From Kiritimatiellia bacterium (GTDB lineage: Bacteria; Verrucomicrobiota; Kiritimatiellia; JAAZAB01), in the NCBI GenBank assembly GCA_028718125.1, contig JAQUMN010000002.1, forward strand, positions 10,463 through 74,462: a DNA stretch of 64,000 nucleotides. Direction: 5' to 3'. Under the pieces are notes generated by a model. It saw only the letters and a program-made list of their open reading frames with translations. It searched no databases and was not told where the DNA came from. A program made the position numbers and the translations under genes. Positions 22,505-63,478 of this stretch are shown in pieces (position 1 is the first letter of the stretch; every line of letters starts with the position of its first letter).

Positions 22505-22670
22505 TCAGGACTGCGTCAAGAACGGTCTCGCTGGAGCTCCCGCCGTCGTCCGGCAACTGCCGGACTATGGCGGTCAGGCTGCCCCTCGGCACGAATGCCA
22601 ATTTTTTCGCGATATTGGAGGGCGAAGCGCCTGCGACGCCGCTGGTTTCAGCATGGATGACGCCGGCTGA
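22505..22670 (+). mobile_element. Dispersed MITE/REP-like element, copy 1
   Basis: tcaggactgcgtcaagaacggtctcg...gtccggcaactgccggac...ttcgcgatattggaggg...gacgccgctggtttcagcatggatgacgccggctga; strongly similar to 52131-52324 (inverse) and 63317-63478. Confidence 0.75.
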
Positions 22671-32400: not shown

Positions 32401-33231
32401 CAGCCGGGAACACCAATCGGCCGGCGCGCCGCCGCCTTCTCCCCAGGAAGGGATCAAAATCACCATTTCTCGCACCAGATTCTCCGGGCCGAAATTGTCG
32501 ATATATTCCGCCTTGATATTTTTTTGCGCGCCAAGCGCCTCATACAATCCTTGCGCGCCGTATACGCCGCCGTTGCGGCGGTAAATGCCGACCGGGATGG
32601 GCTTGGCGTCGTCCGCGGCCGCCCGCGCCAGGAAACCTTTCAATATCTTTTCGGCCGTGGCGGCCTCCAGCACCTTGTCTTCGATCAACCGTGAAACCTG
32701 ATCAGTGGTTGTAATTGGAGACACGACCACGTCATCCACCCATATTCCACCCGGAATGCTCGCCGGCGTAGGCATAAATCTAACACAGATCGTACCATTC
32801 GATTTTGCAGAAGAGGGAAACACGTAAGCGGATTTATGCCAGGTTTCGCCCGCAAAATTATGATTAATGGCCTCAGCCCGCCCGCTGATAATAAGCGACA
32901 GCGCCCCTTTAATCTGCCCCTGGGTCTTGCCCTGGAAGCTTATCTGATAATAAGTATCCGGCGTACTTTGGATTTCCTGCTGGATCACCCGCCAATCGCC
33001 ATTAACATCATTCTTCACAACCATTGCCGCTTTACCGACCCGGGCCTGCGTCAAATCCCGATAGGCCGTATCACGGGTCGCCTGCCATCGGGACCAGCCC
33101 GCCGGCAGGGTCGGATCATCGGGCGCCGCATCTTCAAAACTGCCGTTTTTCAAGAGATTGGGCGCGAGCTCCGCGCCCCCCGCCACACACCCCATCACAA
33201 GCATCGCCATGATTAAAATCGCCTTGCGCAT
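29431..33231 (-). CDS. Secreted multidomain putative glycosidase: CBM-like + ThuA-like + GH-like + GATase-like
   Basis: Signal peptide MRKAILIMAMLVMGCVAGG; NLLKNGSFEDAAP; ThuA-like LRAFVLSGGGLICFHNSVGYNGPLVDPLFPEI...; YKVLLLSDAGSLEPEALALIRAWVAGGGYLIATGGSSLLDVWGR. Confidence 0.65.
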   Translation of the reverse strand: MRKAILIMAMLVMGCVAGGAELAPNLLKNGSFEDAAPDDPTLPAGWSRWQATRDTAYRDLTQARVGKAAMVVKNDVNGDWRVIQQEIQSTPDTYYQISFQGKTQGQIKGALSLIISGRAEAINHNFAGETWHKSAYVFPSSAKSNGTICVRFMPTPASIPGGIWVDDVVVSPITTTDQVSRLIEDKVLEAATAEKILKGFLARAAADDAKPIPVGIYRRNGGVYGAQGLYEALGAQKNIKAEYIDNFGPENLVREMVILIPSWGEGGGAPADWCSRLRAFVLSGGGLICFHNSVGYNGPLVDPLFPEIAKCAGKYFVSRPFQVKDPAHPVFKGLPAAIECAYGDYITMSAGAAGQVLSEDSEGRAVVVAGISGRGRVLQIAFATGLAEGNKELPPQGNELGLLLNSIQWVSAGRAVDPEHAKVLLFREKMKADVSRDRKATLFQITSAGNEIETMLDIAGFDAEEIKGKISGAEYEAYQRQIADARHAIPARLDDFGKRCAEPFDALLKKADLPVERTAKEWENLRLEAQALPHPKYAVDEFDVTTSAARQERYLPPIKEFKDKLQAETSPFCSKLAVLRKELPVTSKPYGDPKAWLENTFLLDMFDDGFLVPGRVETLRYLGHYGFNVIENQYDFRRQSPENLHATLSDMEPEMRRYGIRMLYWPQGDNEVGKPPAMPYFIDPAMLVWRKKVEDCLIKQGAKYPSFVGVQLDEVLSDDHYAFYNLQPGNISAENRKKMVGPFRNYLKNKYDNARLAALGLGALNEIDLPTSKDREAHQVLWMEYQDFLSDGHAAYWRELYEYLHGVKEDVVVWRLINRARFIGIPFACRWSRLSACADVVACSIWVGGDPVQSFFLELLRANARGPSVFTSALHQGGNVETYRRALAMSCAHAQGNQFFAWWTTFKQGWGDRDARLCGDRAAIWAATIEHTQRAKQMNTYLVKTASVAETALIYSERSANLEDYSVPCSYGPYFSNQFGLYAALAHAHIQCDPIYADGLKAETLKRYKVLLLSDAGSLEPEALALIRAWVAGGGYLIATGGSSLLDVWGRHQKDYRLGDVLGVKYVQTKKTKGNLSFGKAPDQTLCKADAYDLVEPTTGTVKAKWENGEPAVLFNRNGKGGCLFISAYHPGLSLTSTGMKIRSPFARDIKFFKGIKEFLADSVQEGLALTKSELPFTVKNCPEDVEVTMRLQANPSRKILHFINHSLTNVPVKGIELELPLQGTGAGPKRVFYGNDQQPVETFSRNDTLICRIRNLEVYEMIVLE

Positions 33232-33344
33232 AGTTGGGTTCTTTCGTTTGTAGTTTATCATCCGCAACATTTGATTCTTCGTAACCACTTCCGTGTTCAG
33301 TATTCAGGAATCAGAATTCAGACAGTAGCATCTACTGCGGCATT

Positions 33345-36300
33345 TCACTCAATGATCACCATCTCGTGAATATCAAGGTCGCGCAGCCCAAAACGCAGGT
33401 AGTCGCCCTGCCGTTCAAAAACCATATCTTGGTTGTTATCGGGGTAAAAGACCCGGCCGGCGCTCTTGGGCGCTTTGACCTTCAACGTTATACCGGATAT
33501 TTTGGCTTTTATATTGGCCTTATAATTAAGGATCTGGATTATTTTCCGTTTTCCGCCGTCCTGGTCCTTTAGCACGATTTCAACCGTTTCCGGACAATTC
33601 TCCGCTATTATCTCATCGGGGGTATGACTCAAGTCGCAAGCCTTGGCCAACAATCCTTTTAGCAGGGCAATATTGCCGGGATAATATTCGCGGTAAAGCG
33701 GATAAGAACTCAGCACTTCTTTATACTGACAGGCCAGTCCTGCTCCAATACCGGTCAGAAACAGGCAATATCCCTTGCCGTAAGAGTTGAGCGTCAAAGC
33801 CGGCGAGCCATCTCTCCAAGTCCCGAGAACTTGCGCGGTGACCGGATTGACCTTGTCGTAACCCGCACGCAGGTCGTATTCCACCCGGCCGGTAAACCAA
33901 TCTGCTTTGACATCAGCCTCGGCAACATACTGTTTTTCCACCAGGTCGCGCGGCAGGTCGAAGAATTTGTTGTCGTTCGTGCCCATGAATTCCCGGCCGG
34001 TAAAATTTACTCCGAACACGTCCGAAAACCGATAATTCTGTTCCTCGCGGCCCCAGCGATCGCATAATGAAGTGGATGCCGTGCCGATCAACACTCCGCC
34101 TTTATTCACCCAGTTCCGAATAATAGCCTCCTCCCCCGGGGTAAGGGACCGGGCATCGGGAATGATCAATGTTTTATATTGATCAATTTTTTTGGCTGAA
34201 AGCGTCTCGGCCCAGATCAGATTGAACTGGGCATGCGCATGGCATAGCGCCTCGTACCAGCCGCGCAGATTTTGCGCATAGCGGGTTTCTGTAAACGTCT
34301 GCACCGGTCCTAAAAAGCGCCCGTAAACCGTGGCGGTAGTGCGGCCGGAATAGACCAGACCAAGCTGGCGTGGAGTTTCAACATTGATCAGATAACGCTC
34401 CAATTTCTCCGCTTTTTGAAATGATTTGGTAACGGTTTCCCACATGCCCGGTTTCCAGTTGCCTCTTTCTTCGCCAAATGTTCCGGGATGCTTAAAAGCC
34501 TGGCCCCAGACATAATTCATGAATCGCTGGCTGTGCGCCATACCGATGGCCATGCCCAGATCATAATGCCTAGCATCAGGCGCTCTGAACATGTATACCT
34601 CCATGCCCACCGGCCGCGCCTCGCCGTCACGGCAAAGCTCGGCCAGGAATGCATTATCGTAAGCGGCCGGCGAATAAGAAGGCTCGGTACCGGGCGAATC
34701 AATATACATTCCCAGTTTTGCGTAAACTGAGATGGTATAGCCCTTGCAGGCCGGAGCGACCGTGATATCGTACATGATGGGCGTGTTTTTTCTGCGTTGG
34801 CGCAGCCAGTCGGCGTTTTCCCGCCAATATTCCAGACACATTGCGTCAGCCGTTTCGATGCATTCGGCATATAATACTGGATTTTTCTGTTTGATTTCCA
34901 ACAAGTGCATGTTCTTCAACAAATCGGCGTTAAGCGCGTTATCGGTCAGGCCGAGTTGTCCACGCATTTCCGCGGGATAATCGGATTTTATTTTTTCCTT
35001 CAGCCTGCTTACAAAATACGGTCCGGCAACGCCGCACCGGACAAAGTCAAAGTGCTGTTGGCTGGCATAATTCATAGGCCATTCCTCGCGCCAGATGCCG
35101 CCAAATGCCGGGAAGTCGCTAATTTCATCCACAAGCGCCGCGATTTCCAGCTTAGTAAACGTCTCGTGGCTATCGGGGCAGGGACCGCCGGGGAACAGTT
35201 TAAGGCCAGCGTCCTCGAACGAATGCATGAAGTAATCCGTGAATTCCATCTGCATGTCAACCCATTTGGAATCGTTAAAAAACGCACAACTTTTGTAAGG
35301 CAGATATGACACCATTTGATTAATGCCGTTGCCCCCGGCCTGTCCGGCATATTGATGAATCAGCCATTGCGATGCCGGCCGGCACCAGTAATCTTGCACC
35401 CTCTGAAATATCCGGTGATATCGATTGTTGGCCACATAAAAATTTTTCTTTGTTTTCAGGAAAGCGGGCTGAACAATTCCGGACGTCGCCGGCGTTTGTT
35501 TTGCGGATTTGATTGCAGCGACGGCATACTGCGCGCCTCCCCACACAAATGCAGACCCGCGGCCGCCAACTTTTTTGGAAACGGCAAAAGAGGCAGCTTT
35601 TTCCAGAAGGGGGATATGTTGCGTTGTCCCGCATTTGCCCAGTCCAAGGCATAGTCCATAGAGGAATTGATGGGGGGCGTCTTTTTTGAGGTTGGCCTCC
35701 AGAAGTTTGGCCAGTTCCTCTGCCGCCGCGTTTCCGCCGATCTCACCCAGCGCTTTTGACGCCTGTCCTTTGAGCTCTGCGTTTAATCCGCTCTCCTCCA
35801 GACTGATGCCCTCGCGTATTATCTTAACAAGGCCCGGGATTGCATTGGTGTCTCTGAGCCAGCCCAGCGAAATAATGGCGTTTTCAACCAGATAAAAATC
35901 CGCGCTGTTATTGAGCAAAGGAATCAGCATCGCGGTCGCTTGCCGGTCGCCGATCATGCCCAGCGCCTGTATTGCGCGGCACCGCCGCCACGGATCTTGG
36001 TTTTGTTGCACAATCCCGGACAGAGCCGGCACGGCCGCGTGCGCCCGCATCCAACTTAACGCATAGACCGCATTGCGAAACACAGCATCATCAGGCGCGG
36101 CTAAAAGTTCGACCAATTCCGACACGGCCTCAGGATATTCCAGCCGGCCGATTTCAAGCGCAGCGGCCGACTGTTCGCGCAAGTCGCCGTCTTTGATGTC
36201 CTTCATCAGACGGGCAGTGTCAGCATTCTCCTCCGACGGCATAGGGCGGGCCTTTTTCTCGTGGCTGGCCACAAATCCCGCGACCTTGTCCCGGAGCATA

Positions 36301-52130: not shown

Positions 52131-52324
52131 TCAGGGCTGCGTCATCCATGCTGAAACCAGCGGCGTCGCGGTCCCGATACCCGCCCACGGCGGCGTGATC
52201 GGAACGCCCTCCAATATCGCGAAAGAATTGGCATTCGTGCCAGGGACAGCCTGCCCGCAATAGTCCGGCAGTTGCCGGACGAAGGAGGGAGTTCCCGCGA
52301 GAGACGTTCTTGACACAGCCCTGA
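52131..52324 (-). mobile_element. Dispersed MITE/REP-like element, copy 2 (best terminal inverted repeats)
   Basis: Ends tcagggctgcgtca (52131-) and tgacacagccctga (-52324) form 14 bp TIRs with one mismatch; flanked by GTA on both sides (52128-52130 and 52325-52327); central gtccggcagttgccggac. Confidence 0.8.
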
Positions 52325-57223: not shown

Positions 57224-60200
57224 CTATTCCAGATCGGTGCGTTGCTTGAAGAAACGCTCCTGGAGCATGTCCATATAAAGGAAAATGCCGGGGGTCACAA
57301 AGAGCGTAATCACCTGGGCGAAGACCATGCCGCCGACCACCACCAGGCCGAGCGGGATACGGGAAGAGGCATCCGCGCCATAGCCCATGGCGATCGGCAT
57401 GGTGCCCAGAATGGCGCACAGGCCGGTCATCAGGATCGGGCGGAAGCGCACGAGGCAGGCGTCATAGATGGCGTCGTAGCTGTTCATGCCCTCCCTGCGC
57501 CGCTGTTCGGCAAAGTCCACCATCAGAATGCCGTTCTTAGTGATCAACCCGATGAGCACGAACATGCCGATGTAGCCGTAAATCGAAAGCTCACTGCCAA
57601 ACGCCAGCAGGGTCAGCAGGCCGCCAAAGACCGCCACCGGCAGGGTGGTGAGAATCGTGAAGGGATGGATATAGCTTTCGTATAAAATCCCCAGCATGAT
57701 ATATTTGAGGAAAATCGCGACAAACAACAGGATGCCCAGGCTGGCGATGGACCGCTTGAATTCCTGGGCATCCCCGGTGAATTTCCCGACTACGCCCTGC
57801 GGCAGGATCTTGGCCGCCACGGCTTCCATCTGTTCGACGGCATACCCTAACGGAATTCCCGGGGGAATACTGAATGAAAGCGTCGCCGATTCCTGCTGCT
57901 GGGCATGCGGCACATTCTGCGGCCCGGCCTCTTCATTCCAGTTCACGACGGACTTCAGCGGCACAAGCTGACCGGTTACGGCTGAGCGTAAATAAAGCAT
58001 GTTCAGGTCATTGGGCCGGCTCTGGTGTTCCTTCTCGATTTCGGGGATAACCTGATATTGGTCGAGATCGGTGGTGAACTGGGTCACATAGCCGCCGGCA
58101 TACCCGATGGCCAGGGCCTGCTCAATGGTCTGCGCCGTGATACCCAGGGCCGAGGCACGATCACGGTCAATGGCCATGTTCAAGCGCGGCATGGTGAGCT
58201 TGATGTTGTTCTGGACGTTGAAGAAGCCCGGTACGCCTTGCATCGCCAGCTCGAGTTGCCGGGAAGCGGCATAGACCTTATTGCGATCGAGCCCCATGAG
58301 CAGATAGGCATAGTCGCTGCCGACCGCGGTGGATTCGGCCCCGGAGCTGATTTTCAGCACCGGCATGGCCTGCAAATAGCAAAAACCGGAAGGCAGAACC
58401 ATCAGCCGGCCCATGAGCTTCTGTACATAGTATTCGATCGGATACTTGCGTTCATGGGGCGAACGCAGGTGGATGAAGAGGAACCCCATGCTCTGGTCGG
58501 CGCCGATCTGGTAGCCCGTGACACTACCCAGTTGGATTACATCGGGCTCCTCGCTGATAATGGCCATCGCCTGTTTTTGAAAGGCCTGCATCTGCGCGGT
58601 GGACGCGCCCTGCGGCATCAGCATGGCGCCATGAATGAAACTGCTGTCGCCCTTGGGCAGAAAATCCTGCGGCAGAATCAGAAACAAGCCGATCGTCCCG
58701 AGAATGCAAAAGAGCCAGGCCAGCAGCGCCATCCATTTGTGATGGAGCTGCCATCGCAACGCCCTGCCATAATATTGCACCAGCGCCGCTATGGTGCGGG
58801 TGATCATCCGCTGAACGCGGTTGGGGGCCTTGTGTTGCCGGATGATGCGAGCACACATCATCGGCGAAAGCGTCAGCGCCACGACGGTTGACACGATGAC
58901 GGCGTAGATCACGGTCAGGGCGAACTCGCGCAGGTTCCGACCAACCGCACCGCTCATGAATACCAGCGGCGTAAAGACAATGATCAAGGCCACACTGGTG
59001 GAGATCACAGTGAAAGTAATTTCCTTCATGCTCTGGATTGCCGCCGGGATGGGCTTCATACCCGCTTCCATGTGGCGCACCGTGTTTTCCAGCACCACGA
59101 TGGCGTCATCCACGAGGAAGCCGACGGCCAGCACGATGCCCATCAGGGAAAGCGTGTCGATGCTGAAACCCGATATCAGCATGAGGATCATCGTGCCCAG
59201 CAGGGAAATCGGCAGAACGATGCCGGGAATGACGGTTTCGCGAATCCGGCCGAGGAACATGAACATCACCAGCACCACCAGGACCAGGGCAATGAGCACC
59301 GTCTCCTGGACATCCTGAATGGATTCCCTGATTGGCTGCGCGGCGTTATGCAGCGCTTCGAAATCAATGGAGCGCGGCAATTCGCGCCGGGCCGTTCTCA
59401 GCGTCTGATCGATCATGTCGGCCACCTTAACCGTATTGGCCCCGCTGATGCGCGAGATGGCCATGACCACGCACATGCTTTTCTCCGCCGACCCGGTTTT
59501 ACGGTAGCGAATGTCCACCAAGTCGTCGGTAATACTGTCAATGCAGCGGGCCACGTCCTTCAGCCGCACCGGCGCGTTATTTCGATAGGCGATGATCAGC
59601 TCGCCATATTCACGCCCGGTGCGCAGCTGGCCTTGCGGCTCGAGCGAAAAGGTTCGCGACGGGCCGTTGAGACTGCCGCCCGGGATGTTGACCGTACCGG
59701 CTTTCAGGGTCAGCGCCAGCTCGTCCACCCCGATCTGATAGGCCGCCAGCTGTTCGGGGATAAACTGGATTCGCACCGCCCGCTGCGCGCCCCAGGTCTG
59801 TACCTGGGAAACCCCCTCGAGCATGCTGATCTTTTTCGCGATGATATGACTGGCATAGTCAAAGAGATCCCCGTGCGACAACGTATCGGAAAACAACATC
59901 AGGAAGTAGATCGGCTGATCGGACGGATTATATTTCTGATACGTCGGGGGATTGGGCAGGTCCTTGGGCAGATTATTTTGCGCGCGGGTAATGGCAGCCT
60001 GCACGTCCGGCGCCACCAGGTCCACGTTGCGATCCAGGCTGAACGTCAGATTGATGGTCGTAAAACCCTCTTTGTTGTCCGAGATCATGGACTGCAGGCC
60101 ATTGATCTGGGTAAACTGGTTTTCCAGGGGCGTAGCCACGGCTGAAGCCATGGTCGCCGGGCTGGCCCCGGGATAGGCCACGGACACCTGGATCACGGGA

Positions 60201-60325
60201 TAGTCCACGGTCGGCAGGCTGTTGACCGGCAGCCGGAAATAGGCCCACACGCCGAACACGGCCATGACCACCATGACCAACGTCGTCATAATCGGCCGGC
60301 GGATAAAGATTTCCGAGAAAGTCAT
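57224..60325 (-). CDS. RND efflux transporter inner-membrane subunit (AcrB/MdtB-like HAE1 family)
   Basis: 1033 aa; FIRRPIMTTLVMVVMAVFGVWAYFRLPV; SYPGASP-type VAYPGASPATM; VGFLVDDAIVVLENTVRHME. Confidence 0.93.
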   Translation of the reverse strand: MTFSEIFIRRPIMTTLVMVVMAVFGVWAYFRLPVNSLPTVDYPVIQVSVAYPGASPATMASAVATPLENQFTQINGLQSMISDNKEGFTTINLTFSLDRNVDLVAPDVQAAITRAQNNLPKDLPNPPTYQKYNPSDQPIYFLMLFSDTLSHGDLFDYASHIIAKKISMLEGVSQVQTWGAQRAVRIQFIPEQLAAYQIGVDELALTLKAGTVNIPGGSLNGPSRTFSLEPQGQLRTGREYGELIIAYRNNAPVRLKDVARCIDSITDDLVDIRYRKTGSAEKSMCVVMAISRISGANTVKVADMIDQTLRTARRELPRSIDFEALHNAAQPIRESIQDVQETVLIALVLVVLVMFMFLGRIRETVIPGIVLPISLLGTMILMLISGFSIDTLSLMGIVLAVGFLVDDAIVVLENTVRHMEAGMKPIPAAIQSMKEITFTVISTSVALIIVFTPLVFMSGAVGRNLREFALTVIYAVIVSTVVALTLSPMMCARIIRQHKAPNRVQRMITRTIAALVQYYGRALRWQLHHKWMALLAWLFCILGTIGLFLILPQDFLPKGDSSFIHGAMLMPQGASTAQMQAFQKQAMAIISEEPDVIQLGSVTGYQIGADQSMGFLFIHLRSPHERKYPIEYYVQKLMGRLMVLPSGFCYLQAMPVLKISSGAESTAVGSDYAYLLMGLDRNKVYAASRQLELAMQGVPGFFNVQNNIKLTMPRLNMAIDRDRASALGITAQTIEQALAIGYAGGYVTQFTTDLDQYQVIPEIEKEHQSRPNDLNMLYLRSAVTGQLVPLKSVVNWNEEAGPQNVPHAQQQESATLSFSIPPGIPLGYAVEQMEAVAAKILPQGVVGKFTGDAQEFKRSIASLGILLFVAIFLKYIMLGILYESYIHPFTILTTLPVAVFGGLLTLLAFGSELSIYGYIGMFVLIGLITKNGILMVDFAEQRRREGMNSYDAIYDACLVRFRPILMTGLCAILGTMPIAMGYGADASSRIPLGLVVVGGMVFAQVITLFVTPGIFLYMDMLQERFFKQRTDLE

Positions 60326-60360
60326 GACGATTTCCGTAATTTAATGTTAAGGTTATTCAA

Positions 60361-60435
60361 AGACGCGGCAACAGAGTGCCGCGGCTACAGAAAGAACTTT
60401 CCAAAATGTAGCCGCCCCACTCCGTTGGGGCGTCT
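60361..60435. repeat. Compact four-way-junction inverted-repeat element between efflux genes
   Basis: agac-[gcggca acagag tgccgc]-[ggctaca gaaag aa ctttc caaaa tgtagcc]-[gcccca ctccgt tggggc]-gtct; all 75 nt assigned with no unpaired junction bases. Confidence 0.8.
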
Positions 60436-60487
60436 GAAAAGGTGTCCGCCACGGGATCTAATTTAAAAACAGTCATTAGGCCAAGGC

Positions 60488-61636
60488 TCATTTGCCTCCC
60501 GGCGCACCCGCCGGGGCCGTGCCGGATGGCGCTTGTTGGGCCGCTTCCGCCACGGACGCGCCCGGATACAACATCAACTGGCCCAGCACCACCACTTTTT
60601 CGCCGGGCTTTACGCCCTCGATGATCTGCAGCAGGTTATCGTATCGCACGCCCGGCTTGACCATCCGGAGTTCCGCCTTGTTATTCTTGTCCACGACGAA
60701 CGCATAGGGCCCATCCTTGCCGAATTGTACGACGCTTTCCGGAACCATCACCGCATCGCGGGCAATGCCGGCCAGAATGCGCACCTCGATAAACTGCTGG
60801 GCCCACAGCTTCCGGTCGGGATTGGGCACCTGCCCGCGCAACAGGATCGTGCCGGTTTGAAGGTTGACGGCGTTGTCGAGGAAGACCATCTCGCCCCCAT
60901 AGCTGTTCGTCTCGCCGCGCGGCGCGATTTCGATCCGGACTTTCCCCGCCGCCATTTCCCGGCGCAGGATTTCCAGATACTGTTCCGAGACCGATAAATC
61001 CACGAAAAGGGGATCGTACGTGCGTATATTGGTCAGCTTCGTCTGGTTGGCCACGGCCAGATTGCCGTTATCCAGGAAGCGCTTGGAACAAACCCCATTG
61101 ACCGAGGAGGTGACCATGCAGCGCGAGAGATCCAGCCGGGCCTGATCGAGTGCCGCCGCGTCAATCTGGAGCTGGGCCGTGGCAGCATCCAACTTGGTTT
61201 TCAGCGTGTCGAATGTTTCCGCCGAAATCATGTTTTTCGCCAGCAGCGGGCGGTTGCGTTCCAGCGTGAGGCGGTTCAATTCCAGGTTGGCCTTGTCGGC
61301 GGCCACCAGACCATCGGCCTGGCGCACCCGGATGGAATAATCGCGGGGGTCAATCAGAAACAGCGGCTGGCCGTTGGTGACGATGGCCCCATCCAGGATA
61401 AAGGTTTGAACGAGCATCCCCGAAACCTGCGGGACAACGTCCACGCTCGCCTGGTCTTTCGTATTTCCGAATGCGTCGATCACCACCGGCGTGTCCATTT
61501 TCACGGCCAGGGCGGTTTGCACCGCCGAGGGCGGGAATTGCGGCGGGCCATTCTGGCGTTGGGAGCAGGCACCCAGTGCCAGGGCCAGTGTGCAGCCGGT
61601 AACGAGGATGACGGCAAAACGCACATATCGGTTCAT
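60488..61636 (-). CDS. RND efflux periplasmic adaptor (MFP/HlyD-like) lipoprotein
   Basis: Lipobox LALALGACSQ; VDVVPQVSGMLVQTFILDGAIVTNGQPLFLIDPRDY; directly upstream of the RND pump. Confidence 0.92.
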   Translation of the reverse strand: MNRYVRFAVILVTGCTLALALGACSQRQNGPPQFPPSAVQTALAVKMDTPVVIDAFGNTKDQASVDVVPQVSGMLVQTFILDGAIVTNGQPLFLIDPRDYSIRVRQADGLVAADKANLELNRLTLERNRPLLAKNMISAETFDTLKTKLDAATAQLQIDAAALDQARLDLSRCMVTSSVNGVCSKRFLDNGNLAVANQTKLTNIRTYDPLFVDLSVSEQYLEILRREMAAGKVRIEIAPRGETNSYGGEMVFLDNAVNLQTGTILLRGQVPNPDRKLWAQQFIEVRILAGIARDAVMVPESVVQFGKDGPYAFVVDKNNKAELRMVKPGVRYDNLLQIIEGVKPGEKVVVLGQLMLYPGASVAEAAQQAPSGTAPAGAPGGK

Positions 61637-63316: not shown

Positions 63317-63478
63317 CAGGGCTGCGTCAAGAACGGTCTCGCGGGAGTTCCCTCCTTCGTCCGGCAACTGCCGGACTATAGCGGGCAGGTTGCCCCTCCA
63401 TGAATGCCAATGTTTTCGCGATATTGGAGGGCGGAGCTCCGCGACGCCGTTGGTTTTGGCATGGATGACACAGTCGTG
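63317..63478 (+). mobile_element. Dispersed MITE/REP-like element, copy 3
   Basis: cagggctgcgtcaagaacggtctcgcgggagttccctccttcgtccggcaactgccggactatagcgggcagg...tggatgacacagtcgtg; 10/13 terminal inverted match; near-identical core to copies 1 and 2. Confidence 0.78.

Follow-up and report, generated by a model that had tools for sequence, protein, structure and literature searches.

REPs and REP dimers of the GTAG superfamily were described by Di Nocera in 2013 (PMC3733652), and REPINs were described by Bertels and Rainey in 2011 (PMC3116915). RAYT-REP pairs have already been reported in the literature, and REPs also serve as insertion targets of other insertion sequences (PMC1525189). The CGTC-type REPs, including Neisseria dRS3, have no known dedicated transposase (PMC3733652). 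IS91 has its stem-loop end upstream of tnpA and its second end on the downstream side (PMC3189936). IS801 has a terminus that resembles its target and produces no target duplication; it mobilizes adjacent DNA and acts in trans, and miniature or one-ended derivatives of IS91 and IS801 capture DNA (PMC3189936). Reports of REPs inside IS91-type ends were not found in the literature searched, which was covered in part.

The element described here lies in a 64,000-nucleotide stretch of DNA from a Kiritimatiellia bacterium (referred to here as the window), in the 162-nt gap between a periplasmic adaptor gene and an RND pump gene. We propose that it is a nonautonomous IS91-type (HUH-Y2, rolling-circle) unit of approximately 122 bp that carries a GTAG REP dimer, a reading to which we assign a probability of roughly three in four. 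The features of the locus are listed in Table 1.

Table 1. Features of the adaptor-pump gap and its flanking genes (window coordinates)
Feature	Positions	Strand	Remarks
RND pump gene (AcrB/AcrD/AcrF family)	57224..60325	-	ACR_tran 5e-275; downstream of the insertion
Insertion target TAATTTAA, left copy	60337..60344		Direct repeat of 60459-60466; adjoins the left end of the unit
Left end ATGTTAAGGTTATTCAAAG	60344..60362	+	Diverged copy of ATGYATAGGAATTTCAAAG; 19.7 bits against the left-end profile
Inserted mobile unit, ~122 nt	60345..60466		Edges uncertain to within the 8-bp repeat
Left REP	60361..60389	-	TGTAGCCGCGGCACTCTGTTGCCGCGTCT on the minus strand; exact match to the family consensus; stem covariation, 30 distinct copies
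Spacer GAAAGAACTTTCCAAAA, separating the GTAG tails	60390..60406		Read from the sequence; varies among copies
Right REP	60407..60435	+	TGTAGCCGCCCCACTCCGTTGGGGCGTCT; exact match to the family consensus; covariation
Right end GAAAAGGTGTCCGCCACGGGATCTAATTTAA	60436..60466	+	Eroded form of AAAGTTGCCGCC..GGCGGCCTAATTTAA (ter-like, with hairpin); right-end profile score, 15.6 bits
Periplasmic adaptor gene	60488..61636	-	HlyD_D23 2.4e-10; upstream of the insertion

A GTAG-type REP dimer between adaptor and pump genes

The sequence of positions 60361-60435 is AGAC GCGGCA-ACAGAG-TGCCGC GGCTACA-GAAAGAACTTTCCAAAA-TGTAGCC GCCCCA-CTCCGT-TGGGGC GTCT. The first-pass annotation had described this sequence as a perfect four-way junction, and the four stems that it described, the outer one and those of three hairpins, are present with abutting junctions. 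It had also held that all 75 nt are used; however, the middle arm encloses 17 nt, in which GAAA/GAAC/TTTC could provide a 4-bp stem and the remainder is unpaired. The inner gaaag-aa-ctttc hairpin drawn there cannot form with its 2-nt loop. Folding of the 75 nt was compared with that of shuffled sequences, giving a z score of -5.77 (0 of 200 shuffles equaled it). As RNA, the cloverleaf reached -35.2 kcal/mol, compared with -38.2 kcal/mol for the best fold of the plus strand and -43.5 kcal/mol for that of the minus strand, which is the one transcribed. As DNA, it reached -17.3 kcal/mol, compared with -23.2 and -25.5 kcal/mol for the best fold. The cloverleaf deficit is 3.0 kcal/mol for plus-strand RNA, 8.3 kcal/mol for minus-strand RNA, and 5.9 to 8.2 kcal/mol for DNA, and the ensemble probability of the cloverleaf as RNA is 0.0016 (plus) or 5e-7 (minus). 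The best fold is a long hairpin in which the left half pairs with the right half, leaving symmetric GG/GG and CC/CC mismatches. A cloverleaf RNA was rejected, since this long hairpin is more stable on both strands, as RNA and as DNA, and since no Rfam family matched the element near threshold. The element does lie between the adaptor and pump genes as had been noted, but both genes are on the minus strand, and thus the transcribed RNA is the reverse complement of the fold originally drawn.

The 75 nt are two inverted GTAG-type REPs arranged as a tail-to-tail dimer. The two halves are the same GTAG-led stem-loop: each starts with TGTAGCC beside a small palindrome, with stems of 6 to 7 bp, and stem positions are swapped from GG/CC to CC/GG between them. 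This swap preserves each small hairpin and disrupts pairing between the halves. The consensus of the REP family is TGTAGCC[GC-NN-CA]CTCNGT[TG-NN-GC]GTC. Copies were found at 14 places in the genome of the window (E<=1e-3), with further copies in G001 to G004 of the same genus and in G008 of a sister genus. When GTDB genomes were scanned for exact half-REPs, 41 stretches were obtained, from Lentisphaerae, Kiritimatiellaeota, Chthoniobacter, Victivallis, and Kuenenia MAG records. Among 30 distinct REP halves, 98.1% of stem cells were paired, compared with 80.4% after shuffling, and stem covariation was 0.474, compared with 0.159 (0 of 500 shuffles reached 0.474). Stem registers that had been slid paired at most 60.5% of cells. 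The first-pass annotation had stated that a lack of compensatory changes among copies would speak against its structure. Such changes were found; what they support is each REP hairpin on its own and not the cloverleaf taken as a whole.

The dimer resembles GTAG REPs and REPINs in its GTAG tail, unpaired dinucleotide, GC-rich stem-loop, and 3-nt tail, in being a tail-to-tail heterodimer, and in its alternative folds, either as separate hairpins or as one long hairpin. REP doublets in P. fluorescens have a head-to-head arrangement, whereas the GTAG tails of the window dimer point inwards. At loci L011, L014, L015, and L374 of the genome of the window, the first-hairpin loop of the REP dimer holds a nested palindrome, CCTGCCCGC...GCAGGCGGG.

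Insertion of a unit with IS91-family ends

Orthologues of the adaptor are present in G001, G003, G004, and G008 (65 to 88% identity). The element is missing from the orthologous gap of three of these genomes (G003, G004, and G008), and the empty sites of G003 and G004 contain a single copy of the A/T-rich TAATTTAA. In the window, TAATTTAA stands on both sides of the ~122-nt insert as a perfect 8-bp repeat, and the empty site is of matching length. The inserted unit is longer than the 75 nt first taken to be the extent of the element. These comparisons also bear on the earlier suggestion of a structured RNA, considered here as one that is conserved in the efflux operon and would set the adaptor:pump ratio through mRNA processing or stability. 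REPs between genes of one operon can affect mRNA stability, and the transcribed strand does contain a strong hairpin, but the element is missing in three relatives with the orthologous operon, copies of it occur at unrelated loci, and the Rfam search adds to these objections, so that we regard such an RNA as highly improbable. A side effect of the element on expression is possible and would here concern the pump and efflux. The same gap of G001 (L124) holds a different long palindrome, CCGCGGATTGCACGGATTACACTGA...TCAGTGTAATCCGCGGT, and therefore another repeat invaded the gap there.

A second polymorphic unit was found in G003 (L029), between genes that are 3 nt apart in G000; the site is empty in G000 and G002. 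At the same site in G004 (L231), the same outer sequence encloses a different GTAG REP dimer. Because G003 and G004 share this outer sequence around different dimers, we define it as a frame, ATGYATAGGAATTTCAA - cargo - AAAGTTGCC(hairpin)GGCCTAATTTAA. The two dimers are unrelated, and either cargo exchange or independent insertion would account for their presence in the same frame at the same site. G003 L034 was considered as a further empty site and rejected as uninformative, since the orthologous gaps in G000 and G004 contain other repeats. Three further frames from the comparison of G000 with G003 were uninformative for the same reason.

An autonomous partner with these ends was identified in G007, a genome of a sister genus. 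This 1.58-kb element consists of the left end, tnpA on the minus strand, GATAAAGTTGCCCTCCCGATCGCGCTTCGCGCATCGGGATGGGCCTAATTCAAT, and the right end with its hairpin. The 400-aa tnpA product is an IS91-family transposase, matching NF033538 (IS91 family) at 292.8 bits (cut-off, 125) and containing the domains Y2_Tnp (PF04986; 8.2e-45) and Zn_Tnp_IS91 (PF14319; 1.7e-19). As in the IS91 family, the end with the GC-rich stem-loop (the right end) lies upstream of tnpA and the left end lies downstream. The right end of the element coincides with the contig end, and its outer flank lies beyond the contig. Two tnpA-bearing copies in G007 have ~680 bp in common, starting exactly at ATGYATAGG, and differ before that point. 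An IS91-type transposase gene was not found in the 1.65 Mb of DNA read from G000 and G003, which belong to the genus of the window.

The window unit has the same two termini as this autonomous element, in diverged form. Its left end, which corresponds to the ori-like end downstream of tnpA, has 5 mismatches in 19 positions, and its right hairpin is eroded. The paired ends score 35.4 bits, and no reversed-sequence control scored above 24. Since its ends are diverged, the window unit may be an old relic.

The perfect repeat of the window copy initially suggested an 8-bp target duplication, which was dropped after the flanks of 23 units were compared. The left and right 8-mers of the same unit agreed at 4.35 of 8 positions, compared with 4.29 for those of different copies (P = 0.39). 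Since the two flanking 8-mers of a unit agree no more often than shuffled pairs do, the 23 units show no target duplication; the window copy is the one with a perfect 8-bp repeat. Both flanks resemble TAATTYAA, the target consensus. This consensus was not imposed by the search, because the left-end search pattern fixes bases from -1 onwards (partly) and leaves the eight upstream positions free. Since the flanks resemble TAATTYAA yet are not copy specific, the units have a terminus that resembles the target, with nothing duplicated, as is the case for IS91/IS801. The target itself is unlike the GAAC/CAAG of IS91/IS801, which we treated as a property of the characterized members and not as defining the family. 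A conventional DDE-transposase MITE with an 8-bp target duplication would account for the perfect TAATTTAA on both sides and the empty site of matching length. It is nevertheless very unlikely, given the flank comparison of the 23 copies, ends that are not inverted repeats of each other, and the occurrence of the same ends around a Y2 (IS91-family) element. An integron attC site was also rejected, since by eye the end motifs resemble RYYYAAC/GTTRRRY in the wrong order only.

With the nonautonomous IS91-type unit as the preferred reading, a transposase that acted in trans on the ends ATGYATAGGAATTTCAA and hairpin-GGCCTAATTTAA would most likely have copied the unit to TAATTTAA in the adaptor-pump gap. 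The enzyme that moved the window copy would be of the IS91 type.

Unrelated palindromes within the same ends

Frames were counted in 1.25 Mb of stretches from the genome of the window. Paired ends of at least 20 bits occurred 37 times, compared with 2 times in reversed sequence, and strong left ends numbered 40, compared with 2 in the control. One of six palindrome types was present within 150 nt after 20 of the 23 strongest left ends, compared with 3% of random positions. These cargo types are the window REP together with other GTAGCCGC palindromes; GTAGGCCCGG; GTAGGGCGGG; CGTC/dRS3-like GGATTCCCG..CGGGAATGAC; GTCATTCCGAGCG; and CCCTCTCCC. The folding energy downstream of left ends was slightly below background (mean, -27.2 versus -23.1 kcal/mol; standard deviation, 6.5), a difference so small that cargo was judged by repeat type and not by energy. 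Of the 10 genomes of the family, 8 contain the left end, and it was found additionally in G019 and G119, with 0 control matches (146 genomes); cargoes differ among G007, G008, G019, and others. Among the collected REP loci, both frame ends accompanied 5 of 13 tail-to-tail REP dimers and 0 of 16 head-to-head dimers, against a background of 0.1%.

The presence of several unrelated kinds of palindromes within the same ends in this family suggests a second route by which REPs spread. In the preferred reading, these ends carry a range of palindromic cargoes that can take one another's place, the REP dimer among them; it may have entered the ends through capture by the rolling-circle element or through RAYT-mediated insertion into that element. 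As a broader proposition, we lean slightly toward the view that unrelated REP superfamilies (GTAG, CGTC/dRS3-like, and others) have been dispersed in the family as interchangeable cargo of nonautonomous IS91-type units. The spread of REPs is an old question, and across the family at least six types of palindrome lie within one pair of ends. If this view is true, these ends provide a route of REP dissemination beside that of RAYTs and a carrier for the CGTC REPs, which are without a known transposase (PMC3733652); a CGTC-type REP, GTCATTCCCGCGAAAGCGGGAATCCAG, is an alternative cargo in the same frame and is not the window's sequence. Such a route would link two HUH systems (Y1 RAYT and Y2 IS91) and would explain how strong hairpins arrive inside operons, here that of an efflux adaptor and pump. 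A test of this view can draw on the empty sites, the empty frame, and the autonomous partner, with the two ends plus tnpA as a defined donor.

Unlike IS91 and IS801, the nonautonomous units are short (~45 to 250 nt) and have unrelated palindromes as interiors. Helitrons are eukaryotic rolling-circle transposons, and the units may resemble them in having a terminal hairpin followed by CTAA (CTRR-like), an A/T-rich target, and variable captured cargo. Unlike Helitrons, the units are bacterial, and the 400-aa IS91-type transposase has no helicase domain.

One locus of G004 (L424; C324 4900-6275) has both ends and no cargo, an empty frame with the sequence ATGCATAGGAATTTCAAAGTTGCGGCGTCTGCCGCCTAATTT. 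In a MAG titled Victivallis vadensis MiH-14oct19-33 (L073, 6742-6806), a tail-to-tail dimer of the window REP occupies the same frame (24.8 and 14.3 bits). Because this record is outside the named relatives, frame and cargo may have spread further.

Search for a cognate RAYT

Approximately 90 Y1 transposase loci from REP-bearing genomes were read. A cognate RAYT was absent from the first 30, and one was found after 60 more. This gene, in Lentisphaerae bacterium GWF2_49_21 (G061; L178, 769-1248), encodes a 159-aa REP-associated tyrosine transposase that matches NF047646 at 85.1 bits (cut-off, 80) and is related to Escherichia coli TnpArep (4er8; 2e-8). On either side of it lies GTAGCCGCGTCACTCTGCTGACGCGTC, which is the same REP family in head-to-head dimers, and the gene is likely the cognate transposase of the REP. 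A cognate RAYT was not found in the genome of the window (93% complete assembly), where the Y1-type genes found are flanked by other repeats.

These results bear on a simpler account, in which a plain, REPIN-like REP dimer was moved by a RAYT (Y1 HUH) and the flanks are a preferred landing site instead of a mobile frame. We consider it unlikely, even with the G061 RAYT flanked by the same REPs and with head-to-head dimers of the same REP occurring frameless in G001 and others: neither the frame nor the REPs are present at the empty sites, frames occur with unrelated palindromes or with no palindrome inside, and the 93% complete assembly yielded no cognate RAYT. The failure to find a cognate RAYT in this genome and the position of the window dimer inside the ends of another transposon set it apart from GTAG REPs and REPINs, which it otherwise matches also in having a RAYT-linked copy (in G061). 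The first-pass annotation had offered three guesses, of which the one naming a RAYT-like hairpin transposon as the source was the closest. The RAYT type of the REP dimer was borne out by the GTAG motif, multiple copies, and covarying stems, together with the G061 RAYT gene that has these REPs on either side, but no cognate gene was found here, and the boundaries of the inserted unit are IS91-family ends and not REPs.

Three genes of the genome of the window were rejected as the cognate RAYT because of their flanking repeats. L027 (1401-2498) and L028 (1401-2510) are Y1 transposase genes with long terminal inverted repeats of their own (GGTCACGTCTCGACATGCGACAA; GGGGTCAGTCCTAATAATAGCAAATAA) and resemble the TIR-flanked "TIRYT" genes (PMC3733652). 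L206 (C1, ~33168-33548) is a RAYT-like gene flanked by GTAGGGACG(GC)..TCTCCGA REPs and forms with them this genome's own, different REP/RAYT pair. A longer interspersed repeat (GCTGCGTCAAGAACGGTCTCGC..., GCTGCGTCATCCATGCTGAAACC...) has three copies in the window, at 22506-22663, 52132-52302, and 63317-63478, and is present at further places in the genome.
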